From contig NC_006513.1 of assembly GCF_000025965.1 (NCBI RefSeq), positions 3,162,001 to 3,226,000 on the forward strand: a stretch of DNA of 64,000 nt, in the 5' to 3' direction. Positions within the stretch are counted from its first letter, which is position 1, and the number at the start of each line of letters is the position of its first letter. This stretch comes from Aromatoleum aromaticum EbN1. Lineage in GTDB: Bacteria > Pseudomonadota > Gammaproteobacteria > Burkholderiales > Rhodocyclaceae. Under the pieces are notes generated by a model. That model made no database searches, was not told where the DNA came from, and worked only from the letters and a program-made list of their open reading frames with translations. The translations under genes and the position numbers were made by a program. This document shows, one piece after another, positions 13,054-31,911 of this stretch.

Positions 13054-14083
13054 TTAAACGGGCACGACGCTCACGGCGTAACCGATCTGTTGAAGCCTTC
13101 GGATCAGTCGGTTGGCGGTCTTGTGAGCATCGGCACGATCGAAGTGTGTGGCGCCCAGGTCCTGCCATTCGGTGCCGTCTCGCAGCATGTGCCAAGCGGC
13201 GGTGAGCATCGAGGCGGCCACGCCGATGATGGCCTTCTTGGCACCGCGGCGAGCGCGCAGGCGATGGAACTGCGCCTGCAGGTAGCTGCCCTTGACCTTG
13301 ATGGCGGCCCAGGCCGCTTGTACCAGCGTGGTCTTGAGCCAGTTGGCACCGCGACGCAACCGGGTGCTGCGGCGTTTGCCGGCGCTCTCGTCGTTACGCG
13401 GGCACAGGCAGGCCCAGGACAGCAAATGGCCGGGCGTGGCGAAGCGCGACATGTCGATGCCGATTTCGGCCACCACCACGTGGGCGCTGACCGCGCTCAA
13501 ACCCGGCATCGTGCTCAGCAGCGCGGCCGCCTGTCGAAAGGGTTCGAGCCCCTGGCCGACCTCCTTCTCGATGGCGGCAATGGCGTGATCGAGCGCATCG
13601 ATGTGCGTGAGGTGCAGCTTGAGCATGAAGCGGTGGTGCGGGCTGACGTGGCCGCGCAGGGCTTCGAGCAGCTCGGTGCGAGTCGCCTTCACGCGCGTGC
13701 TCACGCACGCGAGCAGGCGGAGGGGATCGTCCTGCCCCGCGATGATGGCCTGCAGCACCGCGCGCCCGCTCTGGCCGAGTATGTCGCTGAGCACGACGCC
13801 GAGTTTGAGATTGGCGTCTTCGAGCACTTTCTCGATGCGCTGGATGTGCGCACTGCGCTCGCGCACGAACTGTTTGCGGGTGCGGGTGAGCGAACGCAGT
13901 TCCTGCACCGCCACGGGCGGCACGAAGCTCGCGCGGATCAGGCCATGGGCCAGCAGGTCGGCCAGCCACGTCGCGTCATTGACGTCGGTCTTGCGCCCGG
14001 GCACGTTCTTGACGTGTGCCGCGTTGGCCAGTACCTGCTCGAAGTGGCCTTCGAGCACGTGCCACACCGGCTTCCAGTACACC
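13054..14083 (-). pseudogene. IS110 transposase, C-terminal portion
   Basis: This fragment runs from VYWKPVWHVLEGHF through GRKTDVNDATWLADLLAHGL (the conserved acidic residues of the RuvC-like domain) to the C-terminal domain with STMPGLSAVSAHVVVAEIG and the serine-containing SAGKRRSTRLRRG stretch. The first 68 codons are at 18151-18354. The frame is uninterrupted once the ISAs1 insert and one 10-bp target copy are removed. The two parts together give about 407 residues with no other defect, so the gene was intact before it was hit. Confidence 0.9.
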
Positions 14084-14207
14084 CAGGGCTGCCGCAGCTA
14101 CGCATTTGTCGTTGACCACCAAAGAATGACGTTCACGATCAAGCACTTGCCGCGCCCCTGTTCACAAGCCGTTGTTTTGTGTAGCTTCCTGTCTTTTTGG
14201 GTGACCG

Positions 14208-14351
14208 ATGGACATAGGGAAGCTGGCCGACATGGTGGAGGTTTTCGAGGGGCTCGAGGACTGGCGCAACGCGCAACAGACGCGGCACCGCTTGAGCGAA
14301 CTGCTCACGGTGGCGGTGTGTGCGGTGCTCAGCGGCGCCGACGACTTCGAG
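14208..14351 (+). pseudogene. ISAs1 transposase, N-terminal 48 codons
   Basis: Starts MDIGKLADMVEVFEGLED and ends SGADDFE, the conserved DDE_Tnp_1-associated N-terminus of ISAs1/H-repeat transposases. The frame is cut at TTCGAG (14346-14351), the target duplicated by IS21. It continues in phase as EISQWG from 17115, so no bases were lost. Confidence 0.9.
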
Positions 14352-14557
14352 TGCGCATTCCGACGAACGTGACCGCCTGCACCGACGAACGTGACCGGGG
14401 GGTCTGCGCGCGAAGCGTGGTGTTCAGATTCTAACCGTGTCGGTCACGATCACGGTCAATTCGGGGCACGGCGCAGGCTTATCCACAGGCGGCCGCCAGC
14501 GCGCCTCATACGCTGGCGGGCGGGCGCCTGTGGGTAAGGCGTCTCGCGCGCACGGCC

Positions 14558-15292
14558 TCATGCCTTTTCCTTTCTTCTCATCGACTCGCCCTTGAGGGCG
14601 AGCTTGTGCGCGGCGTGCACGACGCGATCGAGGATCGCATCGGCGAAGGTCGGGTCGCCCAGGTAGGTGTGCCAGTGCTCGATCGGCAGCTGGCTGGTGA
14701 TCACGGTCGAACGCGTGCCGACGCGGTCGTCGAGCAGCTCCAGCAGGTCGCTTCGCTCCTGCGCCGACGGCGCGGCCAGGCCCCAATCGTCGATGACGAT
14801 GAGATCCATGCGCGCGAGCTGCATCAGGCGTCGGCTGAAGCTGCCATCGGCATGCGCGATGCGCAGCTCTTCGAAGAGCCGCGGCAGACGCACGTAGTAG
14901 GCCGCGAGGCCCTGCCGGCACGCCGCGTTGGCGAGCGCGCAGGCGAGCCACGTCTTGCCGCTGCCGGTGGGGCCCGTGATGAGGCAGTTCTGGTGGTGGC
15001 GAATCCACTGGCCGGTTCCGAGCGCGGCGATCTGACTGCGCTCGAGGCCGCGCCCGGCGCGGTAGTCGACGTCCTCCAGGCAGGCGGCAGCGGCTTTGAT
15101 GCGGGCTGCCTTGAGCAGCCGATCGATGCGTTTGCCGTCGCGCAGCAGGATCTCGCGATCGATGAGCTGGGCGAAACGCTCCTCGAAGCTGAGCGCGGTG
15201 ATGGCGGGCTGGGTGAGCTGCTCCTCGAAGGCGCGGGCCATGCCTTCCAGGTGCAGGGTGCGCAGTTGTTGCAGGCTGTGTTGTATCAGCAT
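14558..15292 (-). CDS. istB: IS21 helper ATPase IstB
   Basis: A 244-residue AAA+ ATPase that assists IstA in target capture and integration. It shows the Walker A motif GPTGSGKTW, Walker [10 protein letters not shown], the N-terminal IstB domain ([16 protein letters not shown]), and the sensor region [12 protein letters not shown] at 15292 is chosen because upstream residues in the longer frame are unrelated to IstB. It lies directly downstream of istA (about 20 bases), as in other IS21 elements. Confidence 0.95.
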
Positions 15293-15314
15293 CGATGTTC
15301 TCCGGTGGGTGGAA

Positions 15315-16853
15315 TCAGTGGTAGTAGCGCGCCCCGCGCAGGTTCTCGTGAGCGGCCGGTAGCGCAAGCTCGCTTTGCTGCGCAGTGGATGCGGGCAGCG
15401 GTGCGCGGTCGAGCCCGCTCTTGAGGATCGAGGCGACACTGCGGTAACGCATTGCCCCGAGGGTGACGGCGCGGGTCGCCGCGGCTTCGAGGCGTTCGTT
15501 GCCGTATTGACGACCGAGGCGCATCAGCCCGAGGCACGCCCGGTAGCCCTGCTCGGGGTGCGGCATGCGTTCGAGTTGGTGGCTGACCACCTGCTCGGTG
15601 TGAGGTCCGACCGTGGCACCCCAGGCGATGAGTTTGCCCGGGGACCACTGGCGATGCGCCTGATGCGATGCGGGCATGTGCTCGGTGAGCGTGGTGAAGG
15701 CACCGTGCCGGTGGCTCCTCGCATGCACGGCCACGCGCCTGCCGCCGGCGAGGCATTCGATGCTGCTCGCGGTGATGCGCAGCTCCACCGCCTGGCCGGC
15801 GAGCGCATAGGGCACGCTGTAGTAATGCCCGTCGAACTCGACGTGGTAATCGATGTTGGGCTTGGCCCGCTTCCACTGGGCGAACTGGAAGGGCGTGGCC
15901 GGCAACGCGCGCAGCGCCGGGCGGTCGAGCGTCTCGAACGCTTCGTGGCGCGAGCCTGGCAGGCGCCGGAAGGCACGCGTGTTCAGCGGCTCGAGTAACG
16001 CGGCGATCGCCTCGTTCAACTCCCCCAGCGAGAAAAAGCGCCGGTGACGCAGCCGCGCCAGAATCCAGCGCTGCACGATCTGCACGCCGACTTCGACCTT
16101 GGCCTTGTCCTGCGGCTTGTAAGGGCGCGCGGGCAGGATCGCCACGCCGTAGTGCGCGGCGAACTCGGCGGTGGTGCGCTGCAGTTGCGGCTCGTAGCGG
16201 TCGGCTTGGCCAACGAGCGAGCGCGTATTGTCGGGCACGACGAGCTCGGGCACGCCACCGATGAAGGTCAGCGCCTTCGCCAACGACCCCAGCCAATCCG
16301 CCTGCGACTGCGTCGCCGTGGCACAGGCGAAGGTGTAGCTCGAGGCCCCGAGGACCGCGACGAAGATCTGCGCGCGGGAAATCTCGCCCGTGTCGGCGTC
16401 AACAATCGGCACCGTGTCGCCGGCGTAGTCGATGAAGAGCTTCTCGCCGGCGCGGTGAACCTGGCGCATCGAGCGCTTCAGGTGCCGGGCGAACTCGCGG
16501 TACAGGTCGCAAAAGCGCGAGTACTGATAGCTCGGCCCGTCGGCCGTCTGCACGTACTCTTCCCACAGCAGCGCGAGCGTGACGTTCTTTCGCTTGAGCC
16601 CCTGATGCACCGCCGCCAGATCCGGCGGCACATTCGCGACGCTCGCGCCACGTCCACGCCGGGCGACCCCCAGCACCCGGCGCAACTCTGCCTCGTCGGC
16701 CGCTGACAACTCGGCCCACGTCAGCTCGCTCGCCTCGGCCGCCTTCACATACTTGGCGACCACGCCTTTGGAAATCGACAGCGCGCGGGCAATGCGCTCA
16801 TGCGACAGCGCGCAGTCGTATTTGAGCCGTAACAGCTCCCTGATCTTGTGCAT
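15315..16853 (-). CDS. istA: IS21 transposase IstA
   Basis: A DDE transposase of about 512 residues. It has an N-terminal helix-turn-helix ([28 protein letters not shown]; split here across the known domain), a catalytic core with FIDYAGD, VPDNTRS and KVEVGVQ supplying the Asp, Asp, Glu residues, and a C-terminal Mu-transposase-like domain ([13 protein letters not shown]). The start could also be 21 bases upstream at 16874. There is no frameshift, so the protein looks functional. Confidence 0.93.
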
Positions 16854-17108
16854 GGCAATCCGCTCCGCCGGCATCCTCGGTCTCCGCGCAAAGCGCGCGA
16901 GGGTAGCCGGCCTGACAAACGACGTTGCCACGCTTGGCCTCACAAACCCGTTCCGATTTGATCGTGACCATTGATTCCGACATCGTGACCGCCCATTCCG
17001 ACAACTCGCCGAAATCGGTCACGATCAAATCGGAATCCGCGGTCACGACCGCGGATTCACCGGTCACACTATTTCGGAGTCAGCGGTCACGTTGGGTCGG
17101 AATCCGCA

Positions 17109-18122
17109 TTCGAGGAGATCTCGCAGTGGGGGTGCGCCAAACTGCCGTGGCTGCGGGGCTTTCTGCAGCTCGACTACGGCGTGGCCTCGCCCGACACCTT
17201 CGAGCGCGTGTTCGCGCTGCTCGATCCGAAGCAGTTCGAGCAGGCCTTTCGCATTTGGGTGGGAGGCATTATCCCGGCAGTGGGCAAAGACCAGGTCATC
17301 GCCATCGATGGCAAGTCGAGCCGACGCACCACGAGCAAGGCGGCCGCTGCGCCACTGCATCTGGTCAGTGCGTTTGCGGCCAAGGTGGGCGTGGTGCTGG
17401 GCCAGACGGCGACGGCGGAGAAGTCCAACGAGATCACGGCGATCCCCGAACTGCTCAAGGTGCTCGACATCGACGGCTGCATCGTCACCATCGATGCGAT
17501 GGGCACGCAGACCAAGATCGCGCGCGCCATCCGTGAGCGGGGTGCACACTACGTGCTGTGCGTGAAGGACAACCATCCGAAGCTGCTTGACTCGATCATC
17601 TTCGCGGACATCGATCCGCGCGGCCCGCTGACGCCGAGCTCGACGCACGAGAGCACGAGCACGGGCCACGGACGGATCGAAGTGCGACGCTGTACGGCGT
17701 ATGACGCGACCGATCGGCTCTACAAGGCTGCTGCCTGGAAGGACGTGGCCAGCTTTGCCGTCGTCGAGCGCGTGCGAACGGTGGGCGAGCGCACCAGTAC
17801 CGAGCGCGCGTACTACATCAGCAGTCTGCCGGGCGATGCCGAGCGAATCGCACTGGCGATCAGAAGTCATTGGGAAGTCGAGAATCGGCTGCACTGGTGT
17901 CTGGATGTTCAGTTCGGTGACGACTACGCAAGGGGCCGCATCGGCCACATTGCCCATAACCTGGCGCTGGTGCGCCACATGGTGCTCAATCTCATCCGGC
18001 TCGATAAGTCCATCAAGACGAGCATCAAGACCAAGCGGCTGCTGGCAGCAACATCCGATGAGTTTCGGGCCGCACTGCTCGGCTTCCAAGTGCCTGAAGA
18101 GGATGAGGATGACGACGAGTAA
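17109..18122 (+). pseudogene. ISAs1 transposase, C-terminal portion
   Basis: Continues the transposase begun at 14208: EISQWG, then AIDGKSSRRT, VTIDAMGTQ and YVLCVKDNHP of the DDE domain, ending IRSHWEVENRLHWCLDVQFGDDYAR and an acidic tail. The fragment has an ATG at 17181 but would lack the first third of the domain. Excising the IS21 restores one 383-residue frame. Confidence 0.9.
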
Positions 18123-18150
18123 TGATGAGCGCGTAGCTGCGGGAGCCCTG

Positions 18151-18354
18151 CCAGTACACCCCGGTGGCCTCCATCGCGACCTGCTCGACGCCAAAGCTCT
18201 CGAGCCAGTCGGCCAGGGCCAGCAGCCCCGAGGTGGTCGTGACGAACGTGCGCACTTGCTGCAACGGCGGGCCGTCGCCAGCGATACGGGCGCAGGCCAC
18301 CACTGTTTGTTTGTGCACGTCGAGTCCCGCGCAGCGCGGATAGATGACTTCCAT
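18151..18354 (-). pseudogene. IS110 transposase, N-terminal 68 codons
   Basis: Starts MEVIYPRCAGLDVHKQTVVA, the first RuvC-like Asp segment of IS110 transposases, and ends EATGVYW at the ISAs1 target duplication. ggaggcgatc precedes the ATG at 18354. The frame resumes at 14073 on the far side of the insert. Beyond 18151 the original reading frame is replaced by ISAs1 end sequence. Confidence 0.9.
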
Positions 18355-18587
18355 GATCGCCTCCATGTCGCGGCGACATCGGCGTGCGGCCCACGTCATC
18401 GAACTCTAGGATGCGTGCTCAGGGGCGCGAAGCTCCAGGCGACAGTACGGGGTGCTCGTGTGGCCGCGGGTCCAACTGACATACGGGTTCAAGACACCAA
18501 GGATGAACCGACCTCTGTGCCGGACGCCGCCCCACTATTTAACGCCCGTTTCATGCGTCGTGGGACGCGTGCAGCGCGGTGGAGTAA
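18355..18587 (-). ncRNA. Upstream noncoding end of IS110 element, candidate bridge RNA
   Basis: These 233 bases lie between the IS110 transposase start and the hslR border and hold no gene. In IS110-group elements the long noncoding end before the recombinase encodes the bridge RNA, whose loops pair with target and donor. Length and place fit. Because the target (hslR) and both element ends are visible here, the guide loops could be predicted by matching to hslR ...GTCAG/ACTC and to the ends. The RNA itself is inferred, not seen. Confidence 0.4.
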
Positions 18588-18700
18588 CTGACATGACCGG
18601 CCTCGACCGATTGACTGGCGAGCGAGCGTGTTTTGTAGAAACGCGCCGCCCACAGCCACTTGTCGAGGCGCATGCGGTCGGTGTTTTCGGCGTTTGCCAT
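18588..18700 (-). pseudogene. hslR: hslR (Hsp15) N-terminal fragment
   Basis: Read on the minus strand: MANAENTDRMRLDKWLWAARFYKTRS then EAGHV, the start of the S4 RNA-binding domain of Hsp15 (RLDKWLWAARFYKTR is nearly invariant). It breaks after GHV at the IS110 core dinucleotide; the remainder is at 12748-13033. Translation now runs into the IS and stops about 13 codons later, truncating the S4 domain. Confidence 0.9.
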
Positions 18701-18793
18701 GCTGGAACGTATATGTCCTGACGGTTATCCCGCCGCTGCCTCGGCACGCCGGGCCGGCAGGTCGGGTAGACGAGGGGGTAGGCCCGTGGCGGC

Positions 18794-19516
18794 TCAGCGT
18801 ACCTCGATTTCGTTGATCACCCCGCTGATACCGTGCAGGAACCACGCATCCAGTTCGGCTCGCTGACGTTCGTCCTCGGAGGAGACGACGCCCTTGAGCG
18901 TGACGACGAAATCGCGGCTGGCGATGGCGATCTGCTCTGCATGCACGAGCGGGTCGGTTTCGAGCACGAGGCGCATCGCTTCGACGACTTCCTCGTCATT
19001 ATCGTCTTCGGGGGGCCTGATTTCGAGCGCGTTGTCCACGTTTCGGCAACCGCGTGCCCACCACGCCAGCACGCCCGCCAGGCGTTTGTGGGACAGGCTG
19101 ATGACGTGGCCGCTCAGCGTGATCACGCCGTCCTCGACAGCGATATCGATCGCGCCGCTCGGATCGACACTCGCGTCGCGCAGTACTTCCATGCGGCCCG
19201 AGCTCAGCCCTCTCAGAGTGCAATTGAAGAAATCCACGTCCCGCGAAATCCATTTGCACGCTGCGTCGCGAATCGCTCCGTCGCCTGCCTCCACGACCGG
19301 TGGAATCCGCAGCCGATCGATGACTGTCTGCACACCTTCGATCTCTGTGGCGGCCGCAACCGCACGTCGCTTGCTCGCGATTCCCGGTGCCTCGCCTGAC
19401 AGGGTCACCACGCCCGCAGCAACGCTCACCTCGAGCGGATGACGGACGGGATCAATATGCGCCCCGCGCTCGAGTGCGGCAAGAACGCGGCGCACGATGT
19501 CGTCTTTCGTCTGCAT
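18794..19516 (-). CDS. BON-domain protein (three BON repeats)
   Basis: A 240-residue protein made of three BON domains (about 5-70, 80-155, 165-240), recognisable by repeated DIAVEDGVITLSGHV, EVSVAAGVVTLSGEA and DFVVTLKGVVSSEDERQRAE segments. BON domains bind membranes or small ligands and are frequent in stress-induced (OsmY-like) proteins. The usual export signal of OsmY is absent: MQTKDDIVRRVLAALERG is the start, chosen for the aaaggagacgg site before 19516. Probably cytoplasmic or peripheral. The downstream neighbour was hslR. Confidence 0.85.
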   Translation of the reverse strand: MQTKDDIVRRVLAALERGAHIDPVRHPLEVSVAAGVVTLSGEAPGIASKRRAVAAATEIEGVQTVIDRLRIPPVVEAGDGAIRDAACKWISRDVDFFNCTLRGLSSGRMEVLRDASVDPSGAIDIAVEDGVITLSGHVISLSHKRLAGVLAWWARGCRNVDNALEIRPPEDDNDEEVVEAMRLVLETDPLVHAEQIAIASRDFVVTLKGVVSSEDERQRAELDAWFLHGISGVINEIEVR

Positions 19517-19659
19517 GATCCCGTCTCCTTTGGTGATGTCGGTAGGGGCGTTTGTCTGATCATAGACAACGAACCGGCAGTGACGCGATCTGCAGGGGTG
19601 GCGGAGGTGCAGCAGGCGGGAGAGGGCAACTCCGGCCTGGCCGATCCGGGCCCCCGAAA

Positions 19660-19690
19660 GCACAACGCCCCGCTGCTGGCGGGGCGCTGT
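19660..19690 (-). terminator. Hairpin after the aldehyde oxidoreductase gene
   Basis: GCCCCGC (19667-19673) and GCGGGGC (19679-19685) form a 7-bp GC stem with a 5-base loop downstream of the oxidoreductase stop at 19739. On the minus strand it is followed by gttgtgcttt, a weak T-tract. It would separate the oxidoreductase from the BON gene. Confidence 0.5.
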
Positions 19691-19738
19691 GGCGCTCTTT
19701 GCTGTCCTGTCAGGCCGCGATGCTCGACGGACGCAGCC

Positions 19739-22063
19739 TCAGCCGCCGGCGATGATCGGCACCAGCGTAACCCGGTCGCCGTCGTTCAACGCGGTCTCGC
19801 GCTCGCCCGACAGCACCATGCGGCCATTGACCGCGACGTTCCACGAATGGTCGCCGAGTTCCTCCTGCGCTTCCGGGAACCGCCGGCGCAGGGCGTCGCG
19901 CAGCGCGATCACGTTCGACACCGGCTCGTCGATGACGATGTCCTTGTCCGGTGCACCCGGAAGCGGCTTCGGCAGTTCGACGCGGACCGCAAAGCCGGTC
20001 ATGGTGTGGGCGAGTTGTTCGTGCCAGTCCGCCGCCGGCACGCCTTCGGCGTTCAGCCCCGTGACCGTGTAGAAGCGCGACTTCATCGCCTCGAACTCCT
20101 TGCGATCGACTTTCTCGCCCTTGAACGGACCGACTTCGATTTCCTCGTCGAACCAGCGCCGCGGCAGCGTGTCGTCCTTCGCCCGCAGGCCGAGGCGGAA
20201 GTTCAGCAGCCGCTCGATGCCGGTGATGTTGCGGCCGATTTCGTTGAGCTCGTCGGCGCTGAGCGTCACGTCGGTGGCCGTCGACACCTGTGTCGCGAAG
20301 TCGCCGCAGTCGGGCGTGGTGGGCGAGTTGAACAGCTTGGTGTTGAAGCGGCACATGCCGACCGAGTCGCCGACGGCGAAAGTGTTCTCGCAGCGACGCA
20401 CCGCGAATTCCTTGCCTCCATAGCCGTTCGGCTCCGGCACGACGGCGCCGCCGTAGAGCTGCGTCTTGAATGCCGCGTCGTCGTTGATGCGCGCGTTGAT
20501 CTCCAGCGTCACGCGGTTCCTGAGATGGTCCATGCCGCGGGTCGCGACCGACAGGCCAAGCGCGAACGCCTTGAGGATGCGTGCGTCGTGCGGGTCGGAC
20601 TGGAACAGGCCCTTGACCGCCATGCGGTAATCGAGCGCTTCCTTCGGGTACTTGCCGCGCTCGACGGCGCGCGACGAATCCGCGATGGTGTCGCCGAAGC
20701 CTTCGCGCTTGGCCGTCATGAACAGCAGTTTCTCGACGGTCTCGTAGTTGCCCCACGAGAGGTCGAGGCCGCCGGTGTGGCTCGCGTCGATGATGCCGCG
20801 CTGCCACAATTCCATTGCCCACGCGATCGCGCTGCCGGTGGACGAAGAGTCCAGGCCGAGGTCGTTGAGGATGTTGTTGAGGCGCAGCACGTGCTCCGGC
20901 TCCTTCAGTCCGATCATCGGGCCGAACTTGCCGACCGTGACGTACTCCGGGCCGTCGCCCTTGTCGTACTTGTCGAACTGGCCGTCGTTGTGGATGCCGT
21001 TATACGTGCGCTCTTTGCCGTGCTCGACATCGGCCTGGGCCTTGTCGTAGCTCGCATTGCCCTTGAGGCCTTTCAGCGCCGCCGAGCCCCAGCCGCCCTT
21101 GCCTTCGGGGGTCATGTCGTTGAGGTTGCGGCAATGCACTGGGCACTTGTAGCAGCCGTCCATACCGGGGCGGTAGGGGTCGAAGTTGTCGGCGTCGAGC
21201 GACTCGTGCCAGGCGGTCTTCTGGTTGTTCATCGTGCCCAGCGCGCCGAGCACGCGCGAAGGCTTGTACAGGAACGGCGTGCCGACCTGCTTGAGCGCAT
21301 TCTTGATGACCGAGGTCGAGGTGATCTTCTTGCCGATTACCTTGTTGTGCTCCTTCAGCTCCTTGACCTTCGGCGCTTCGCCCGGCTTGCCGTGCACCAT
21401 GATCGCTTTCAGGCGCAGCGCGCCCATCTTCGCGCCGCCGCCGCCACGCGCCCAGATCGCCTTGATGCCGCCCATGATGCCGCTGCACAGCGCGAGGTTT
21501 TCGCCGGCGCTGGTGATGCGCGCAAGCGCCATGTCCTTGCGTTCGGTGCAGTCGAAGTCGCGCTCGATTGCGCCGGGGATCTCGAGGTTGTCGAGGCCGA
21601 CGTAAGGCGTCGCGTCGAGGAACTGGACTTCGTCGTGCGCGATACGCAGCAGCGTCCATTGCGGCGCCAGGCCGTACAGCACGATGTGGTCGTAGCCGTG
21701 GCGCTTGACGAAGGACGGGAAGTAGTCGCCGCCGTTGGTGTCGAGGATCGCGTCGCTTTCAGGGGAGCGGCTGGTGAAGTTGCCGCGCGTCGCGGCCGGC
21801 ATGTCCCCGGTGAGCGTGCCGGCACCGAAGATCAGCGGCACTTCGGGGTCGAGGGCGTCGCGTTCTTCCTGCAGCAGGTTGTAGAGCAGGTACATGTTCG
21901 CGCCGCGACCGCCGAGGAACGTCTGCAGCACGTCGCGCGGCAGGTATTTGCGGCGCGTCTCACGGCGTTCGAGATCGACGAACAGGGTGAGGCCCTGCGT
22001 GGGGAACTGCGGCTCGTCATGCATTCTGGCGCACAACTGCTCGACCTTCGTCCTGATATTCAT
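19739..22063 (-). CDS. Tungsten aldehyde:ferredoxin oxidoreductase with C-terminal MoaD/ThiS-like domain
   Basis: A 774-residue enzyme of the AOR family, which oxidises aldehydes to acids using a tungsten bis-pyranopterin and one [4Fe-4S] cluster. FVDLERRETRRKYLPRDV and FLGGRGANMYLLY form the AOR N-domain. The cluster ligands are C304, C307 and C311 (GCYKCPVHC) and probably C571 (GMCRF). About residues 698-774 are extra: VAVNGRMVL, ETALNDGDRVTLVPIIAGG. This is a ubiquitin-like MoaD/ThiS domain with an intact terminal GG, the residue pair thiocarboxylated in sulfur carriers. ATG at 22063 is favoured by homology, although the ribosome site is poor. Its substrate may be aromatic aldehydes (inference from neighbours). 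Confidence 0.88.
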   Translation of the reverse strand: MNIRTKVEQLCARMHDEPQFPTQGLTLFVDLERRETRRKYLPRDVLQTFLGGRGANMYLLYNLLQEERDALDPEVPLIFGAGTLTGDMPAATRGNFTSRSPESDAILDTNGGDYFPSFVKRHGYDHIVLYGLAPQWTLLRIAHDEVQFLDATPYVGLDNLEIPGAIERDFDCTERKDMALARITSAGENLALCSGIMGGIKAIWARGGGGAKMGALRLKAIMVHGKPGEAPKVKELKEHNKVIGKKITSTSVIKNALKQVGTPFLYKPSRVLGALGTMNNQKTAWHESLDADNFDPYRPGMDGCYKCPVHCRNLNDMTPEGKGGWGSAALKGLKGNASYDKAQADVEHGKERTYNGIHNDGQFDKYDKGDGPEYVTVGKFGPMIGLKEPEHVLRLNNILNDLGLDSSSTGSAIAWAMELWQRGIIDASHTGGLDLSWGNYETVEKLLFMTAKREGFGDTIADSSRAVERGKYPKEALDYRMAVKGLFQSDPHDARILKAFALGLSVATRGMDHLRNRVTLEINARINDDAAFKTQLYGGAVVPEPNGYGGKEFAVRRCENTFAVGDSVGMCRFNTKLFNSPTTPDCGDFATQVSTATDVTLSADELNEIGRNITGIERLLNFRLGLRAKDDTLPRRWFDEEIEVGPFKGEKVDRKEFEAMKSRFYTVTGLNAEGVPAADWHEQLAHTMTGFAVRVELPKPLPGAPDKDIVIDEPVSNVIALRDALRRRFPEAQEELGDHSWNVAVNGRMVLSGERETALNDGDRVTLVPIIAGG

Positions 22064-22097
22064 TGGCGTGTCCGTGGCGATCAAGAGAGTGGTTCGA

Positions 22098-22126
22098 AGT
22101 ATAGAGAGCAAATTGTTTGACGTCAA
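22098..22126 (-). promoter_or_regulatory. Sigma-70-like promoter of the aldehyde oxidoreductase gene
   Basis: On the minus strand TTGACG (22121-22126) and TATACT (22098-22103) are separated by exactly 17 bases and lie about 35 bases before the ATG at 22063. The -35 box is inside the 20-bp palindrome at 22112-22131, so a bound repressor would block RNA polymerase. Confidence 0.7.
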
Positions 22127-22131
22127 ACAAT
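22112..22131. promoter_or_regulatory. Perfect 20-bp palindrome, probable MarR operator
   Basis: ATTGTTTGACGTCAAACAAT is a perfect palindrome covering the -35 region of the oxidoreductase promoter. The same sequence with one change occurs at 37962-37981, next to the MarR-type gene at 37412-37879. The length and two-fold symmetry suit a MarR dimer. Confidence 0.75.
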
Positions 22132-22249
22132 GGTGGCGAGCAATGAATGTCGGTGGACGACGATCGATTTTCGATATTTCGGCGACGAATCTCCTCGTTG
22201 TTTCATCCTCCCGATCGCCCGGCCCGTATGGGCACCGAAACGGGGGTGT

Positions 22250-22277
22250 AAATGAAAACGGGCGCCGCAGCGCCCGT
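22250..22277 (-). terminator. Rho-independent terminator after the porin gene
   Basis: ACGGGCGC (22258-22265) and GCGCCCGT (22270-22277) form an 8-bp stem with a 4-base loop. On the minus strand it is followed by TTTCATTT. It ends the porin transcript and insulates the oxidoreductase promoter. Confidence 0.8.
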
Positions 22278-22297
22278 CTATTCCAGTCGGGAGATGA

Positions 22298-23347
22298 TCA
22301 GAACAGGTGGTTCAAACCGACCATCAGGTTGCGGCTCGTGTCGCCGGGCGAAGTATTGGCCGCACTGACAAACGACGGGGAGCGCACCGCCCGTCCGTCG
22401 TCGTTGCTGATGTGGCCGTAACCGGCGTAGGCGAGCGTGCGCTTCGACAGCGAGTGGGAGTACACCACGGCCCACGAGTCGGCGTCGCTGTCGTTCGTAT
22501 CCGCGTCCAGTCGGCCATAGGCCACGGAGAATTTGCCCGAAGTGCCGATCGGCACGGTGCCGCCGATATGCCAGACGTTGTCGGTGTCTTCCGCTGCGGT
22601 GGCATCCTCGATGCGCTGATACGAGCCCGCCAGCTTGAACACGCCGAAATCGTAGGAGCCGCCGATGTACGCTTCGCGCTTGTCCTCGTCGCCGACGTGT
22701 TCCTTCACCTGGCTGTAGATCAGGCCGATGGCGAGCGGGCCGTTCGCGTAATCGGCGCCGATCGCCGCGATGTCGCCTTTCCGGCGGTCGTCGTCCTGGT
22801 TGACTTCATTGAGACCATAGATCGCGTTGAGCGTCAGGCCGCCGAAGTTCGGCGACTTGTAGTTGATCGAGTTGCTGACGCGGGCGGGACCACCTGCCAC
22901 GAGGTTCGATCCGGCGGCAGCCGCCAGGGCGAACTGCGGGCTGATCGGCACGGGAACGATGGCGTCGTACTTGAACACGTAGTAGCCCGGATGGTACTGG
23001 CGACCGAGACCGATGAAGCCGAAGCCGCCCTGCAGGCCGATGAACTGCTGCCGCGAAAGGTTGGGGGCTGCACCCAGGCCTGCGTTCTGGTCGAGCTCGA
23101 TCCCGTACTCCAGCGTGAACACGGCCTTGAGCCCGTTGCCGAGGTCTTCGGTGCCGCGGAAGCCGAGGCGCGAACCCGCCCAGCCGCCACTCTGCACACC
23201 GGTAAATTTGGCGTCTCCGGTCTTGCCGTAGCCGATGAAAGCATCGGCCACGCCATATACCGTCACATTCGACTGGGCTGCGGCGGAAGCCGAAACCAGA
23301 CCGGCGACGATACAAGAGACCGCTATGGCGAGACGTTTTTTGTGCAT
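22298..23347 (-). CDS. General porin (Gram-negative porin, OmpC/PhoE-like betaproteobacterial type)
   Basis: A 349-residue trimeric porin. The signal peptide MHKKRLAIAVSCIVAGLVSASAAAQ is followed by SNVTVYGVADAFIGY, the standard mature start of betaproteobacterial porins. SRLGFRGTEDLGNGLKAVFTLE and the final LMVGLNHLF with terminal Phe complete the barrel. It allows diffusion of small anions and aromatic acids across the outer membrane. aaaggggaaatca precedes the ATG at 23347. It is divergent from the TRAP transporter genes, and the shared gap holds MarR-operator-like sequences, so co-regulation is likely. Confidence 0.93.
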   Translation of the reverse strand: MHKKRLAIAVSCIVAGLVSASAAAQSNVTVYGVADAFIGYGKTGDAKFTGVQSGGWAGSRLGFRGTEDLGNGLKAVFTLEYGIELDQNAGLGAAPNLSRQQFIGLQGGFGFIGLGRQYHPGYYVFKYDAIVPVPISPQFALAAAAGSNLVAGGPARVSNSINYKSPNFGGLTLNAIYGLNEVNQDDDRRKGDIAAIGADYANGPLAIGLIYSQVKEHVGDEDKREAYIGGSYDFGVFKLAGSYQRIEDATAAEDTDNVWHIGGTVPIGTSGKFSVAYGRLDADTNDSDADSWAVVYSHSLSKRTLAYAGYGHISNDDGRAVRSPSFVSAANTSPGDTSRNLMVGLNHLF

Positions 23348-23525
23348 TGATTTCCCCTTTTTTGATGTGGATTCGAAGCCCGTTGCAACTCGTCCGACGC
23401 GGGTCGGCAAGTTGAACTTTGTTATGAATAGTGCCGCTCTCTCTGGTGAAACCTGTGGCGGTTCTTGTCGGCGCATCGCCAGGGCGATAACCCTTCTGAC
23501 GCCAATGTATTTTCCGAATCGTGTC

Positions 23526-23551
23526 TAACAAATAGTTACAAGTCAAACAAA
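23526..23551. promoter_or_regulatory. Two direct half-sites of the MarR-type operator
   Basis: gtctaacaa (about 23524-23532) and gtcaaacaa (23542-23550) are the two half-site variants of the palindrome at 37962-37981, here in direct orientation. They lie in the 449-base gap between the porin and TRAP genes. This may be a degenerate operator; the evidence is only the sequence similarity. Confidence 0.35.
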
Positions 23552-23678
23552 AGATCAACGAATTCATCCGGCAGGGGGCGGACTACTCCCCGCGCGCAGC
23601 CCTGCAGACCCATCTGCGCGCCGGGGGGCACGATGCTCTCCAGAGCTCGCTTGCAAGAGACGTTTGTGAATATCGTAG

Positions 23679-23698
23679 ATTGTTTGATATTCATCAAT
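23679..23698. promoter_or_regulatory. Imperfect copy of the MarR-type palindrome before the TRAP operon
   Basis: ATTGTTTGATATTCATCAAT keeps one half-site (ATTGTTTGA) and a weaker inverse, 8 of 10 symmetric pairs. It lies about 100 bases before the binding-protein gene at 23797. It could bring the transporter under the same regulator as the oxidoreductase. Confidence 0.45.
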
Positions 23699-23796
23699 CG
23701 AAGCGAAGATAGGCAATGCTCCATGTTGTGGGGCGCCTACCTCAGGCCTATCGTGCAGAAAAACAAAAACCACGAACCGATACACCGGAGGAGCAG

Positions 23797-24846
23797 ATGA
23801 GCAAAGGTATTTCAGCTGGATTCAGGGTAGTGGCAGGCGCGACGATGGCGCTGGCGTTCGGTGCAGCGTCGGCGGAGGAAGTGACGCTGAAGGTGCATCA
23901 CTTTCTGCCGCCGGGTTCGACGGCGCACGCCAAGTTCATCACGCCGTGGTGCGACAAGATCAACAAGGAATCCGCCGGTCGGCTGAAATGCCAGATCTAC
24001 CCGGCGATGCAGCTTGGCGGCACGCCGCCGCAGCTGATCGACCAGGCGCGGGACGGCATTGCAGATATCGTCTGGACGCTGCCCGGCTACAGCGCGGGGC
24101 GCTTCCCCGCGGTCGAAGTGTTCGAGTTGCCGTTCATGATCAAGAGCGCTGAAGGGTCGAGTCGTGCATTGTGGGAATACGTCACGGCGAACAAGCTCGA
24201 CCAGACCGAGTTCAAGGATGTGCACCCGATCCTGTTCCACGTCCACGACAGCGGCCAACTGCACCTCGTCAAAAGGCCGATCACCCAGCAATCGGACTTC
24301 CGTGGTCTCAAGCTGAGAGCGCCGACGCGCCAGACGAACAAGTTCCTCGCCGCGCTCGGTGCGACGCCGGTCGGCATGCCGGTGCCGCAGGTTTCCGAGG
24401 CACTGTCGAAAGGCGTCATCGACGGAGCGATGCTGCCGTGGGAAGTCGTTCCTGCGGTCAAGGCGCACGAACTGGTCAAGTTCCACAGCGAAGGCGACCC
24501 GAAAGCGCGCGCGCTCTACACGGGGGCGTTCATCTTCGCGATGAACAAGGCGAAGTACGACAGCCTGCCGGCCGACCTGAAGCAGGTCATCGACGCCAAT
24601 GGCGGAGCCGAGGCCTCGGCGTGGGTCGGCAAGGTGTGGGACGAGTCGGCGACCGCCGCGCGCAAACTGGCGTCGGACCGCGGCAACCAGTTCAACGTCA
24701 TCCCGGCGGCCGAGCTCAAGAAATGGGAGAAATCCGGCCAGCACGTCTATGACTCATGGGTCTCGGAAGTCTCGGGCAAGGGATACGACGGCAAGGCGCT
24801 GCTCAAGAGCGCACAGGATCTGATCCAGAAGCACGACCCGATCTGA
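23797..24846 (+). CDS. dctP: TRAP transporter periplasmic substrate-binding protein (DctP type)
   Basis: A 349-residue exported binding protein. The signal peptide ends near AFGAASAEE, then VTLKVHHFLPPGSTAHAKFITPW opens the DctP fold. The conserved ligand-contact segment FRGLKLRAPTRQTNKFLAALGATPVGMP contains the Arg that binds a substrate carboxylate, and GVIDGAMLPWEVV follows. Ligands of this family are carboxylic acids, so an aromatic or aliphatic acid is expected. ggaggagcag precedes the ATG at 23797. Followed by the DctQ and DctM partners. Confidence 0.93.
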   Translation: MSKGISAGFRVVAGATMALAFGAASAEEVTLKVHHFLPPGSTAHAKFITPWCDKINKESAGRLKCQIYPAMQLGGTPPQLIDQARDGIADIVWTLPGYSAGRFPAVEVFELPFMIKSAEGSSRALWEYVTANKLDQTEFKDVHPILFHVHDSGQLHLVKRPITQQSDFRGLKLRAPTRQTNKFLAALGATPVGMPVPQVSEALSKGVIDGAMLPWEVVPAVKAHELVKFHSEGDPKARALYTGAFIFAMNKAKYDSLPADLKQVIDANGGAEASAWVGKVWDESATAARKLASDRGNQFNVIPAAELKKWEKSGQHVYDSWVSEVSGKGYDGKALLKSAQDLIQKHDPI

Positions 24847-24966
24847 AGCATTCGGCACGCCGCGATGCGAACCGCCACGGTTCACATCGCGGTCACATGA
24901 CCCGCGGTCTGCGGGTCCGGCGACGAATCGTCCGCCGGCCGGGATCGCCTCACCGGGAGACTTCAA

Positions 24967-25488
24967 ATGTCCGAACCCATTGCAACGCCGGTCTGTGCGC
25001 CGCAGGACCCGATCGGCCGCTCACTGTTCTTCCTTTCCCGCACGTTCGCCGCGACCGGCGGACTGGTGCTGGTCGCAGTCAGCATCATGTCGGTGTTCAG
25101 CATCGCGAGCCGCGCGCTGACCGGCAACGCCGTGCTCGGTGACTTCGAGCTGGTGCAGATCGGCTCCGCCGTTGCGGTCGCCGCGTTCCTGCCGTGGGGC
25201 CAGATGCGCGGCAGCCACGTGTTCGTCGACTTCTTCACGACCGGCCTGCGCCCCTGTATGCGGGCACGGCTCGACGGTCTCGGGGCACTGTTGCTCGCGA
25301 TCTGCGCTGCGATCGTGGCTTGGCGGATGACGATCGGCACGGTCGATCTCAGGGCCAGCAGTGAAACCTCGATGCTGCTCGGCGTGCCGACCTGGTACGC
25401 GTACATGCTGATGTCACCGTCCTTTGCGCTGCTCGCCGCGACCGCGTTCTACACGTCATCACGGAAATTCCGGGAGCAGCCAGCATGA
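24967..25488 (+). CDS. dctQ: TRAP transporter small permease (DctQ type)
   Basis: A 173-residue membrane protein with four predicted helices (about 27-47, 62-82, 102-122, 142-160). GDFELVQIGSAVAVAAFLPWGQMRGSHVFVDFF is the conserved DctQ core. It forms the membrane complex with the DctM subunit, whose ATG overlaps its stop (ATGA at 25485). Confidence 0.9.
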   Translation: MSEPIATPVCAPQDPIGRSLFFLSRTFAATGGLVLVAVSIMSVFSIASRALTGNAVLGDFELVQIGSAVAVAAFLPWGQMRGSHVFVDFFTTGLRPCMRARLDGLGALLLAICAAIVAWRMTIGTVDLRASSETSMLLGVPTWYAYMLMSPSFALLAATAFYTSSRKFREQPA

Positions 25489-26804
25489 GCGGTACGGCAA
25501 TCGGTGCAAGCTTCTTCGTTTTCCTGCTGGTGCTGCTGGCACTGCGGGTGCCGATCGCGATCTCGATGCTGATCACCGGCGTGGCCGGCTACGTCACGAT
25601 GGCGGGCTGGGATCCGCTGCTGGGCTATCTGAAGACCGCCGCCTACGGGCGCTATTCGATCTACGATCTGTCGGTTGTCCCGCTGTTCCTGCTGATGGGC
25701 AGCTTCGCGTCGCGCGGCGGCCTGTCGAAAGCGCTGTTCGGTGCCGCCGAATCGATGATCGGCCATTACCGCGGCGGCGTCGCGATGGCGGCGGTCGGCG
25801 CTTGCGCGGGGTTCGGCGCAATCTGCGGCTCGTCGCTCGCGACGGCGGCGACGATGGGGCAGGTCGCGTTGCCCGAACTGCGCCGGCTCAATTACTCGCC
25901 GGCACTCGCGACCGCGACGCTCGCCGCCGGGGGGACGCTGGGCATCCTGATTCCGCCGTCGGTCGTGCTGGTGATCTACGCGATCCTCGCCGAGCAGAAC
26001 ATCGCCAAGCTGTTCGCCGCGGCGCTCATTCCGGGGATCATCGCCGCCCTCGGCTACATGGCCGTCATCGCGCTGCACTGCCGGTTCAACCCGGGTGCGG
26101 GACCGGCCGGGGAACGCAAGAGCGTGGCGCTGCGCATTCGTGCGCTGATCGACGTATGGCCGGTGCTGACGATCTTCGTCGTCGTCATCGGCGGCATCTA
26201 CGGCGGCATCTTCACGCCGACCGAAGCCGCTTCGGTCGGCACGATCGGCGCCGGCGTGCTGGCGGTCGCGAAAGGCATGCGCCTGGATGGACTGATGGAG
26301 TCGCTGTATTCGACCGCGGAGGCCACCGCGATGATTTTCCTGATCCTGCTCGGGGCCGACGTGCTCAACGTGTTTCTCGCGCTGACGCAGATGCCGGCGG
26401 AACTGGCGAGCTGGGTCTCGGGCTCGGGCCTGCCGCCGCTCCTGGTGCTGTTCGCGATCATCGTCATCTACATGTTCCTCGGCTGCGTCATGGACAGCCT
26501 GTCGATGATCCTGCTGACGATCCCGATCTTCTTCCCGGTGATCATGGGCCTCGATTTCTGGGGCCTGGGCCAGTCCGAAAAGGCGATCTGGTTCGGCATC
26601 CTCGCGCTGATGGTCGTCGAGGTCGGCCTCATCACACCGCCCGTCGGCATGAACGTCTACATCATCAACAGCATGGCGAAGAACGTCCCGATGTCGGCGA
26701 CTTTCCGCGGCATCGTGCCGTTCCTGATGTCGGACGCGCTGCGCGTCGTCCTGCTGGTTTTCTTCCCGGTCCTGACGCTGTTTCTGGTCCGGGTGATTGA
26801 ATGA
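25485..26804 (+). CDS. dctM: TRAP transporter large permease (DctM type)
   Basis: A 439-residue, about 12-helix permease that drives sodium-coupled uptake with DctP and DctQ. Typical segments are PLFLLMGSFASRGGLSKALF, GAICGSSLATAATMGQVALPELRRLNY, AAGGTLGILIPPSVVLVIYAILAEQNIAKLF and GLITPPVGMNVYIIN. The stop overlaps the start region of the CoA ligase reading frame (ATGA at 26801), which indicates co-transcription and suggests the imported acid is then activated with CoA. Confidence 0.95.
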   Translation: MSGTAIGASFFVFLLVLLALRVPIAISMLITGVAGYVTMAGWDPLLGYLKTAAYGRYSIYDLSVVPLFLLMGSFASRGGLSKALFGAAESMIGHYRGGVAMAAVGACAGFGAICGSSLATAATMGQVALPELRRLNYSPALATATLAAGGTLGILIPPSVVLVIYAILAEQNIAKLFAAALIPGIIAALGYMAVIALHCRFNPGAGPAGERKSVALRIRALIDVWPVLTIFVVVIGGIYGGIFTPTEAASVGTIGAGVLAVAKGMRLDGLMESLYSTAEATAMIFLILLGADVLNVFLALTQMPAELASWVSGSGLPPLLVLFAIIVIYMFLGCVMDSLSMILLTIPIFFPVIMGLDFWGLGQSEKAIWFGILALMVVEVGLITPPVGMNVYIINSMAKNVPMSATFRGIVPFLMSDALRVVLLVFFPVLTLFLVRVIE

Positions 26805-26839
26805 AGTCCGGGGCTTCCGGGTTAGAGGAGAAAATCGCA

Positions 26840-28321
26840 ATGAATGCTGCCGAAACTTTGCTGTCCGCGGGCGTCGACACGGCGATCGCGATCGAATGCG
26901 ACGATGAAAAAGTGAGTTACGCGGTGCTTCGCGACCGCGTGAGCCGCGCGGCCGGCGCGTGGAAGACCCTCGGCCTGCAACCGGGCAACCGGGTCATCGT
27001 GTTCGCGCCGGACAGCGTCGACTGGGTCGTTGCCTACCTCGGCGCGATCTGGGCCGGCGGGGTCGCGATCGGCGTCAATCCGCGCCTGTCGATGAACGAG
27101 TTCGCGCCGATCCTCAACGAATGCGAGCCGCGCTTCGTGTGGTGCGAGACCGAGCAGGCCAGGGCGCTTGTCGCCGAAGCCCGCACCGTTGCGGAAATCG
27201 TTGCGGACGGTCCCGGCACGTCCAACTGGGCGACGCACCTCGCTGCGGCTGAAGCCGTCGCGCCGCTCGAGCGCGCCACCGAGGACGCTGCACTGTGGAT
27301 CGGAACGTCCGGGACGACGGGCGTGCCGAAAGGCGTCGTCCATGCGCAGCGCACGGTGACCAACGCACATTCGTTCGCCTGCGGCATCCTCGGGCTGACC
27401 GCGGCCGACCGGCTCTACGCCAGTTCGAAGCTGTTCTTCGCCTACGCGCTGGGCAATAGTCTGTTCGCGGGCCTGCGCGTCGGCGCGACGGTGATTCTCG
27501 ACCGCCAATGGCCGACTGCGGAGCGCGTCGAGTACATGGTCGAAAAATACCGTCCGACGCTGCTGTTCAGTGTTCCGACGCTGTACCGCAAGATGCTGCA
27601 GACCGGCGTCGCCCGGCGGATCGCTCAATACGGCATCCGCCACTGCGTCTCGGCCGGCGAGGCGCTGCCGCTGGCGGTGCGACAGGACTGGCGCGAAGCG
27701 ACGGGCCATACGTTGATCAGCGGCTACGGGACGTCGGAGACGCTGTGCCTGATGCTCTTCAGCGATGACGATTCCGGCCTGATGCGGCCGACCCCGCTGA
27801 CCGAAGTCCGTCATGCCGACGACGTCGATCCGGACGTGCCCCAGCGCGTGTGGATCCGCCATTCGGCGGTCGCGCTCGGCTACTGGGAGCGGCCCGAGGC
27901 GCAGGCGGACGGGTTCCGCGACGGCTGGTTTTCTCCTGGCGACATGTTCCTGCGCCACGCCGACGGGCGCCTCGAATACACCGGGCGCAACGACGACATG
28001 CTGAAGATCGCCGGCCAATGGGTCAGCACCTTGTGGGTGGAGCAGTCGCTTGCATCGGTTTGTGGCGAAACGCTTCATCAGATCGCGTCGGTGGGGGTAA
28101 GCTCCGCCGACGGCTTGACGGCACTCGCAGTGCTCGCCGTGGCATCGCCGGAGCGCCGCAGCGAAGCGCGCCAGAGGATGGACGAAGGCATTGCGACGCT
28201 GCCCGGTCATCGCCGTCCGCGCTGGGTGCACTGGCTCGACGAGCTGCCGCTGACGCCCACCGGCAAGCTTCAGCGCGGGCGTCTGCGGGCGTTGCACGAG
28301 AGCGCCGTCGCCGTGTCCTGA
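26840..28321 (+). CDS. Benzoate-CoA-ligase-like acyl-CoA synthetase
   Basis: A 493-residue AMP-forming carboxylate-CoA ligase of the benzoate-CoA ligase branch. It has the P-loop TSGTTGVPKGV, KLFFAYALGNSLFAGLRVGA (typical of benzoate/4-hydroxybenzoate ligases), SGYGTSETL, the adenylate site GWFSPGDMFLRHADGRLEYTGRNDDM, and the catalytic Lys in PTGKLQRGRL. ATG at 26840 is preferred for its gaggag site 8 bases upstream; the frame is open back to 26801. Its position after the TRAP genes suggests the imported aromatic acid is its substrate. Which acid is not resolved. Confidence 0.88.
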   Translation: MNAAETLLSAGVDTAIAIECDDEKVSYAVLRDRVSRAAGAWKTLGLQPGNRVIVFAPDSVDWVVAYLGAIWAGGVAIGVNPRLSMNEFAPILNECEPRFVWCETEQARALVAEARTVAEIVADGPGTSNWATHLAAAEAVAPLERATEDAALWIGTSGTTGVPKGVVHAQRTVTNAHSFACGILGLTAADRLYASSKLFFAYALGNSLFAGLRVGATVILDRQWPTAERVEYMVEKYRPTLLFSVPTLYRKMLQTGVARRIAQYGIRHCVSAGEALPLAVRQDWREATGHTLISGYGTSETLCLMLFSDDDSGLMRPTPLTEVRHADDVDPDVPQRVWIRHSAVALGYWERPEAQADGFRDGWFSPGDMFLRHADGRLEYTGRNDDMLKIAGQWVSTLWVEQSLASVCGETLHQIASVGVSSADGLTALAVLAVASPERRSEARQRMDEGIATLPGHRRPRWVHWLDELPLTPTGKLQRGRLRALHESAVAVS

Positions 28322-28378
28322 CCGGGGGCTCCCGTCGCGCGCATTGTGAAAATTCTGCCAAGGCAGGGGAGAACTGGA

Positions 28379-30517: not shown

Positions 30518-31911
30518 TGAACCGACACATCCTGATCGTCGACGACGAGGCGCTGTACCGCCAGCTGCTCACCAGCCGGCTCGGCCGCGCCGGCTACCGC
30601 CTCAGCGAAGCCGCGGACGGCGAGGCTGCGCTCGAATGTGCGCAACACGGCGGAATCGACCTCGCGCTCGTCGACATCAAGATGCCGGGCATCGACGGCA
30701 TCGAGGTGTTGAAGCGGCTCAAGGAGCTCGATCCGCTGATCGAAGTCGTGATCCTGACGGGGCACGGCAACGTCGACACCGCGATCTCGGCAATGAAGCT
30801 CGGCGCCTTCGACTACCTGTCGAAACCTTACAAGCTGACCGAGCTCGACATCGTCGTCGAGCGCGCGCTCGAAAAGCGCGCGATGGCACAGCGCTGCGCG
30901 GCGCTGAGTGCCGAGGTCGCCGCGCTGCGCAGCACGGACGACGGCGCGGTGATCGGCGCGAGCGCCGCGTGGAAGCGCATGCTCGCGCTCGTGCGCCGCG
31001 CCGCACCGCTCGACCTGCCGGTGCTGATCACCGGCGAGAGCGGTGCCGGCAAGGAGGTCGTCGCGAGCGCGCTGCACCGCTGGAGCAACCGCGCGAAGGA
31101 ATCCTACGTGCCGCTGAACTGCGGCCTGCTCGACGACGACCTCGTCGAGAGCGAACTTTTCGGCCACAAGCGCGGCGCGTTTTCAGGCGCGACGGCCGAC
31201 AAGGAAGGCCTGTTCCAGGTCGCGAGCGCCGGGACTCTGTTCCTCGACGAGATCGGCGAACTCCCCCTCGGGTGCCAGGCGAAGCTGCTGCGCGTGCTCG
31301 ACAGCGGCGAATTCCGCCAGCTCGGCGCGACCGCGCTGCGGCACACCCATGCGCGCGTCGTCGCCGCGACGCACCGCGACCTCGATAAGCTCGTCGCTGA
31401 AGGCAAATTCCGCCACGACCTGCTGTACCGACTCAACGTCGTACATATCCACGTGCCCCCGCTGCGCGAACGGACGGAGGACATCCCGCTGCTCGTCGAA
31501 CACCTGCTCCGTCGCAGGACGCCCCAATCAGGGCCGGTGCCGCAACTCGCGCCGACCGCGCTCGCACACCTCGTCGCCTACCGCTGGCCCGGCAACGTCC
31601 GCGAGCTCCGCAACGTCGTCGAGCGACTTATCGCCTTCCGCGAAGGCGACACGATCGGGGAGGCGGAAGTGTGTGCGGTGCTCGGGATTGCCCCGGCGCC
31701 CGCGCCGGGCTGCGCGCGGGGAGGGGCGGCGGCCGCTTCGGATGGCATCGTGCCCCTCGACGATTTCCAGCGCGACTACGTGCTGCGCGTGCTCGACAAG
31801 CTCGACGGCAACGTCAGCGCAGCGGCACAGGCGCTGGGCGTGTCGCGCTCGACCGTCTATCGCTTCCTGCGAGAAATGCCTGTTACGGATGACGCCCAAC
31901 GTTTGACATGA
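30517..31911 (+). CDS. pcrR: Sigma-54-dependent response regulator, PcrR-like
   Basis: A 464-residue NtrC-type activator. The receiver domain (1-120) has the phosphoacceptor D53 in LALVDIKMPG and the conserved Lys in LSKPYKL. The AAA+ domain has Walker A GESGAGKE (173-180), GAFSGA (220-225, the sigma-54 contact loop; GAFTGA is canonical), and DEIGELP. A Fis-type helix-turn-helix ends the protein (AAAQALGVSRSTVYRFLRE). It overlaps the kinase gene (TGATG). The target is probably the sigma-54 promoter at 32503-32518 upstream of the p-cresol genes. Confidence 0.9.
   Translation: MNRHILIVDDEALYRQLLTSRLGRAGYRLSEAADGEAALECAQHGGIDLALVDIKMPGIDGIEVLKRLKELDPLIEVVILTGHGNVDTAISAMKLGAFDYLSKPYKLTELDIVVERALEKRAMAQRCAALSAEVAALRSTDDGAVIGASAAWKRMLALVRRAAPLDLPVLITGESGAGKEVVASALHRWSNRAKESYVPLNCGLLDDDLVESELFGHKRGAFSGATADKEGLFQVASAGTLFLDEIGELPLGCQAKLLRVLDSGEFRQLGATALRHTHARVVAATHRDLDKLVAEGKFRHDLLYRLNVVHIHVPPLRERTEDIPLLVEHLLRRRTPQSGPVPQLAPTALAHLVAYRWPGNVRELRNVVERLIAFREGDTIGEAEVCAVLGIAPAPAPGCARGGAAAASDGIVPLDDFQRDYVLRVLDKLDGNVSAAAQALGVSRSTVYRFLREMPVTDDAQRLT

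Follow-up and report, generated by a model that had tools for sequence, protein, structure and literature searches.

An AOR/WOR-family oxidoreductase with a MoaD-like C-terminal domain in Aromatoleum aromaticum EbN1 and its co-occurrence with class I benzoyl-CoA reductase

The window analysed here, a stretch of 64,000 nucleotides from the genome of Aromatoleum aromaticum EbN1, carries a gene in which an oxidoreductase of the AOR/WOR family is joined to a predicted MoaD-type domain (Table 1). Both AFOR_N and AFOR_C were detected above their curated Pfam cut-offs, and ThiS (PF02597) matched residues 710-774 (E 1.1e-8; 35.9 bits; cut-off 22.5). An original prediction, which had proposed an AOR-family protein with a MoaD/ThiS-like fusion at this locus and an HMM check of its C-terminal part, is borne out by these matches. 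Judged by its domains (PF02730 and PF01314) and its fold, the protein is a member of the AOR/WOR family. The stop codon comes straight after two glycine codons. The size of ~77 extra residues, as assumed originally, has to be corrected: the C-terminal domain comprises about 84 residues (691-774), while the AOR part itself is ~60 residues longer than usual. The latter is largely due to a clade-specific insert of ~40 residues, which is located between the third cluster cysteine and the GPEY motif.

Table 1. Features of the fused gene and its upstream region (window coordinates)
Feature	Position	Strand	Details
AOR/WOR-family oxidoreductase with predicted C-terminal MoaD-type domain, 774 aa	19739..22063	-	ATG at 22063, TGA at 19741-19739
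AFOR_N, pterin-binding part, residues 26-225	21389..21988	-	Pfam 1e-44, 153 bits
AFOR_C, residues 240-684	20012..21346	-	Pfam 4e-89, 300 bits
C304-x2-C307-x3-C311, three [4Fe-4S] ligands	21131..21154	-	invariant, 85/85
C571, fourth [4Fe-4S] ligand	20351..20353	-	invariant, 85/85
Residues 313-368 with clade-specific insert	20960..21127	-	13 invariant positions
V375, position of PfAOR Glu313	20939..20941	-	V 77, T 4, I 2, A 2; Glu never
Predicted MoaD-type beta-grasp sulfur-carrier domain, residues 691-774	19742..19993	-	Pfam, predicted structure, fold matches
Gly773-Gly774, free C-terminus	19742..19747	-	81/81 complete homologues
Palindrome ATTGTTTGACGTCAAACAAT, perfect, 20-bp, possible operator	22112..22131	.	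upstream of the ATG of the fused gene

A gene encoding a protein with three BON domains (18794-19663, minus strand) lies directly downstream of the fused gene and is retained in close Aromatoleum loci. Positions 13054-18399 of the window are occupied by an insertion-sequence cluster: an IS110-type transposase with a second, partial one; an IS21-type pair with IstB; and a DDE_Tnp_1 transposase. The genes located upstream of the fused gene code for a porin, a TRAP transporter, an acyl-CoA ligase most closely related to 3-hydroxybenzoate/benzoate ligases, and a histidine kinase. The gene at 28346-30517 (plus strand), which adjoins the benzoate-type CoA ligase, combines XylR_N-V4R sensor domains, PAS domains, and a histidine kinase; about 10 loci of the Aromatoleum type have this gene close to the fusion. 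The palindrome ATTGTTTGACGTCAAACAAT recurs only in A. anaerobium and A. buckelii, whose loci are the closest among Aromatoleum, and was rejected as a general operator. The Rfam search of positions 18000-31000 gave no match and, hence, no sign of a Moco/Tuco riboswitch in this region.

AlphaFold2, run on 32 fused proteins, gave a pTM of 0.86 and a pLDDT of 77. The model has a pLDDT near 90 for residues 691-770 and of about 50 for the last residues, as expected of a flexible end; residues 310-350 and 482-527, in the active-site region, are below 50. Foldseek matched the full model to AORs first (E 6e-32) and to MoaD of MPT synthase next. The VIA-align Z-scores of the full model against seven solved AOR/WOR members were in the range of 31-40, and 36-40 for AORs, with 40.5 for 9mqx and 38.3 for PfAOR. 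Residues 692-774 gave Z-scores of 10.8 (E. coli MoaD), 10.4 (CysO), and 7.8 (ThiS). MoaD was also the best PDB match of the domain modelled alone (E 3.8e-5), and SAMP1 and Urm1 were among its structural matches. The fused domain is thus predicted to adopt a MoaD-type ubiquitin-like beta-grasp fold, in agreement with the original expectation of a ubiquitin-like structure.

At the sequence level, a profile of the fused domain picked up E. coli MoaD (E 1e-4). The NCBIfam scores were all below the cut-off: 29.7 bits (moaD_arch); 16.7 bits (moaD); and 17.2 bits (thiS). The MoaD equivalog TIGR01682 scored 22.1 bits against a curated cut-off of 66.15. Accordingly, the domain is described here as MoaD-like rather than as a standard MoaD. 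An origin from WorX or AorD was also considered; all other carriers tested reached 6-15 bits against the fused-domain profile.

Among the 85 homologues examined, 81 have a complete C-terminus, and four are truncated by the end of their contig. Every complete homologue ends in a free GG followed by the stop codon, as the original prediction would have it. Of the two outcomes that the original prediction had named as refuting it, namely a structure prediction with no ubiquitin-like fold and homologues devoid of the terminal GG, neither was obtained. The only invariant positions among the 84 residues of the domain are E754, G773, and G774. The remainder shows more variation than the AOR part, with pairwise identities dropping to 22% and a mean column entropy of 1.31 bits over residues 691-772. 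Invariance of the tail is the strongest argument for the preferred reading set out below.

The fusion was identified in 43 of 299 genomes of the family, with the match reaching residue 774; the copy in one genome (G206) is split over two contigs. The scan of public genomes, one per species, revealed 77 loci with the fusion, mostly in Aromatoleum, Azoarcus, Sulfuritalea, and other Betaproteobacteria. A minority belongs to some Gammaproteobacteria (Sedimenticola) and to Geothermobacter. The phylum-wide sample of 398 genomes yielded, at E <= 1e-60, only the genome under study. These occurrences, together with the structural match to MoaD, place the fusion beyond chance. In the tree with unfused AORs, the fused proteins form one group (100/100) and, therefore, have a single origin in this tree. 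The stem of the group is long (~4.1 changes per site) and raised long-branch warnings, so that only the unity of the clade is claimed here, not its placement among the AORs. In Sulfuritalea-type genomes (L089, L090, L092, L094, and L097), the fused gene is present in two neighbouring copies.

The most common neighbours across the 77 loci were the alpha (35) and beta (19) subunits of 2-oxoacid:acceptor oxidoreductase, a MarR regulator (34), a PaaK-like ligase (24), and a YfhL-type ferredoxin (18). A shared operon with genes for electron-transfer subunits or with moa/moe genes was rejected, since no conserved neighbour of this kind stood out.

Active-site residues were mapped by alignment to PfAOR. 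The four cluster ligands are retained in all homologues and are the only invariant cysteines in the fused clade. By this clade-wide comparison, a conserved extra cysteine ligand to W/Mo, as in BamB and YdhV, is absent. Thr243 (T262) and His448 (H513) are retained in the fused protein, as is the equivalent of Glu311, and Tyr312 is mostly retained in the clade. Tyr427 is replaced by His (H492). The position of Glu313 does not hold Glu in any of the 85 homologues, while all 15 unfused AORs taken from two clades for comparison have Glu. The second shell typical of aldehyde-oxidising AORs (Thr243, Glu313, Tyr427, and His448) is, therefore, incomplete in the fused clade. According to a 2025 review (PMC12096430), Glu313, His448, and Tyr427 are universally conserved in known AORs, and the mechanism is built on these residues; the exchange of Tyr427 for His is known from AORCf and WOR5. 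Since the clade lacks a Glu that is considered universal, the label 'aldehyde oxidoreductase' used in the original prediction appears unsafe and is withheld here. The missing Glu313 suggests a substrate or a proton relay unlike those of known aldehyde oxidoreductases, and redox catalysis could be altered or even lacking.

Class I benzoyl-CoA reductase of the bzd or bcr type was present in 41 of the 43 genomes with the fusion and in 15 of the 256 others (Fisher p 2e-35, a count that ignores kinship). This link mostly persists within mixed genera: one genome with both and three with neither in genus g30; two with both, one with the reductase only, and five with neither in genus g48. In G184, one of the two genomes that deviate, bcr-type pieces lie on different contigs. 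The fusion clade is thus found almost only together with class I benzoyl-CoA reductase. A role in peptide fermentation, by analogy to Pyrococcus, was also considered and set aside, since the link with this reductase better fits aromatic metabolism.

The survey for genes related to cofactor synthesis revealed a MoaD gene adjoining MoaE, a ThiS gene, an AorD gene of its own for the second AOR of this genome, and E1 enzymes, including a strong ThiF/MoeB-type E1. A homologue of TupA is also present, with a family model match below the curated cut-off. The fused carrier is, therefore, not the sole one but an additional, enzyme-bound carrier, and the standard moaD beside moaE implies that it need not make MPT. 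MPT is built on MoaE, not on the AOR itself. In Thermococcus, UblB is needed for the tungsten cofactor (Wco) of GOR, an AOR-family enzyme (PMC11323500). This precedent makes an enzyme-dedicated carrier believable.

Cofactor loading in cis, as originally suggested, is a plausible proposal. Our preferred reading, of moderate confidence, is a thiocarboxylated tail that serves the synthesis of MPT for the enzyme carrying it; this enzyme would exchange electrons with ferredoxin as part of anaerobic aromatic metabolism. The fusion protein would then combine a tungsten (bis-molybdopterin) enzyme of the AOR/WOR family and a MoaD-type carrier dedicated to it. The MoeB-type E1 of the genome would adenylate the free C-terminal glycine, and a sulfur relay would convert the adenylated C-terminus to a thiocarboxylate. 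The fused carrier might then dock into MoaE and give dithiolene sulfur to cPMP. By bringing part of its own MPT synthase, the enzyme would tie the supply of pterin to the enzyme molecules that need it; in Thermococcus, UblB plays such a role for GOR in trans. Ferredoxin is the probable partner of the mature enzyme, in the anaerobic metabolism of aromatic acids.

The predicted MoaD fold and the other carriers in the genome, which are able to supply sulfur, would also suit a docking or regulatory ubiquitin-like module that recruits MoeB/MoaE or a Mo/W insertase and is itself free of a sulfur load. This is unlikely, since it leaves the invariance of GG (81/81) unexplained while the rest of the domain varies more than the AOR part. 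The same tail might be activated by an E1 in order to join the enzyme as a whole to another protein, as in SAMPs and the Thermococcus Ubls. The latter do perform both conjugation and sulfur transfer (PMC11323500), and the structural matches of the domain include SAMP1 and Urm1. However, the best of these matches are sulfur carriers, and the neighbour groups named beside the fused gene included neither a JAB peptidase nor an E2-like gene, which makes conjugation improbable. A low probability is likewise assigned to sulfur transfer in cis within the active centre of the enzyme itself, where the thiocarboxylate would pass sulfur to W (as a sulfido ligand) or to a substrate and Glu313 would no longer be needed. 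The fusion and the loss of Glu313 coincide across the whole clade, a fusion of ThiS to sulfite reductase (PMC1779556) is a precedent for sulfur chemistry in cis, and WOR5/ASOR acts on sulfonates (PMC12096430). Yet the link between core and domain is very short and only a ~5-residue tail follows the last strand, so that a buried centre in the same chain would seem hard to reach.

A quite unlikely possibility is that the clade represents a new catalytic type of tungsten enzyme. Here, the carrier tail and a rebuilt active site (Glu313 lost, Tyr427 changed to His, the ~40-residue insert) would perform sulfur or carbonyl chemistry in cis in anaerobic aromatic metabolism instead of ordinary aldehyde oxidation. 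A frozen fusion, that is, a carrier devoid of present function next to a catalytic part that does all, would agree with the standard moaD elsewhere in the genome. It is highly improbable and already largely refuted by conservation: GG is invariant although the domains are as little as 22% identical, and no member of the clade was found without the domain.

Strain EbN1 was formerly placed in the genus Azoarcus. Iyer, Burroughs and Aravind (2006; PMC1779556) reported an Azoarcus MoaD fused carboxyl-terminal to an aldehyde ferredoxin oxidoreductase, which very probably is the present protein. Thus, the fusion is not new but has been on record since 2006, for what is here the same species. The accessible part of that report devotes one line to AOR-MoaD and holds no survey, active-site analysis, or link with benzoyl-CoA reductase. 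The fusion was not mentioned in the later tungsten literature searched. A divergent AOR/WOR clade marked by the fusion, the loss of Glu313 in it, the ~40-residue insert, and the benzoyl-CoA reductase link were found in no accessible paper, and the significance of the present analysis would rest on these clade features, not on the fusion itself.

The other AOR of this genome shares all of its 616 residues with PDB 8c0z, AorB of A. aromaticum. The AorABC system, with separate aorD/aorE genes (PMC6365974; 8c0z), belongs to the same organism and the same AOR/WOR family, and also has a MoaD-like carrier encoded with the enzyme. Its carrier is, however, encoded by a gene of its own and not part of the enzyme chain. 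AorB, to which the fusion protein is ~27% identical, keeps Glu313 and Tyr427 and has the electron-transfer subunits AorA/AorC, whereas the fusion protein is not encoded beside such subunits. Class I WOR (PMC13328260) shares a single large subunit and a carrier predicted to serve pterin synthesis, but WorX (ThiS-like) and ThiF are separate proteins there, and the fused domain matches the other tested carriers weakly. WOR5/ASOR of Pyrococcus furiosus (6x1o) has the same replacement of Tyr427 by His. It is described as retaining the other residues except Thr (PMC12096430), whereas the fusion clade keeps Thr and lacks Glu. The second-shell Glu is also absent in class II benzoyl-CoA reductase BamB, which acts in aromatic metabolism as proposed for the fusion clade, and in the YdhV clade. 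These enzymes possess an extra Cys ligand to W/Mo (Cys322 in BamB and Cys336 in YdhV), whereas the fusion clade shows no invariant Cys besides the cluster ligands.

The association of AOR genes with MoaD-like genes has been in question since 2006, and WorX is still without an assigned function in a 2026 classification. With carrier and enzyme in one chain, loading and metalation are measurable on the same molecule by mass spectrometry, and the host genus has already been used to produce AOR. The fused clade, in which the proposed catalytic Glu has been lost naturally, further provides a test of current AOR mechanisms and a putative tungsten enzyme, as yet unassigned, that is linked with benzoyl-CoA reductase.

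Unfused AORs of another clade, with Glu313 present and His at position 427, were observed in three loci (L066:6883-9270, L067:8887-11022, and L068:7160-9301). Each is followed by a 76-aa MoaD/WorX-type ORF ending in GGG. In L066 and L067, this ORF opens in-frame right after the AOR stop and is, therefore, one stop codon short of a fusion.
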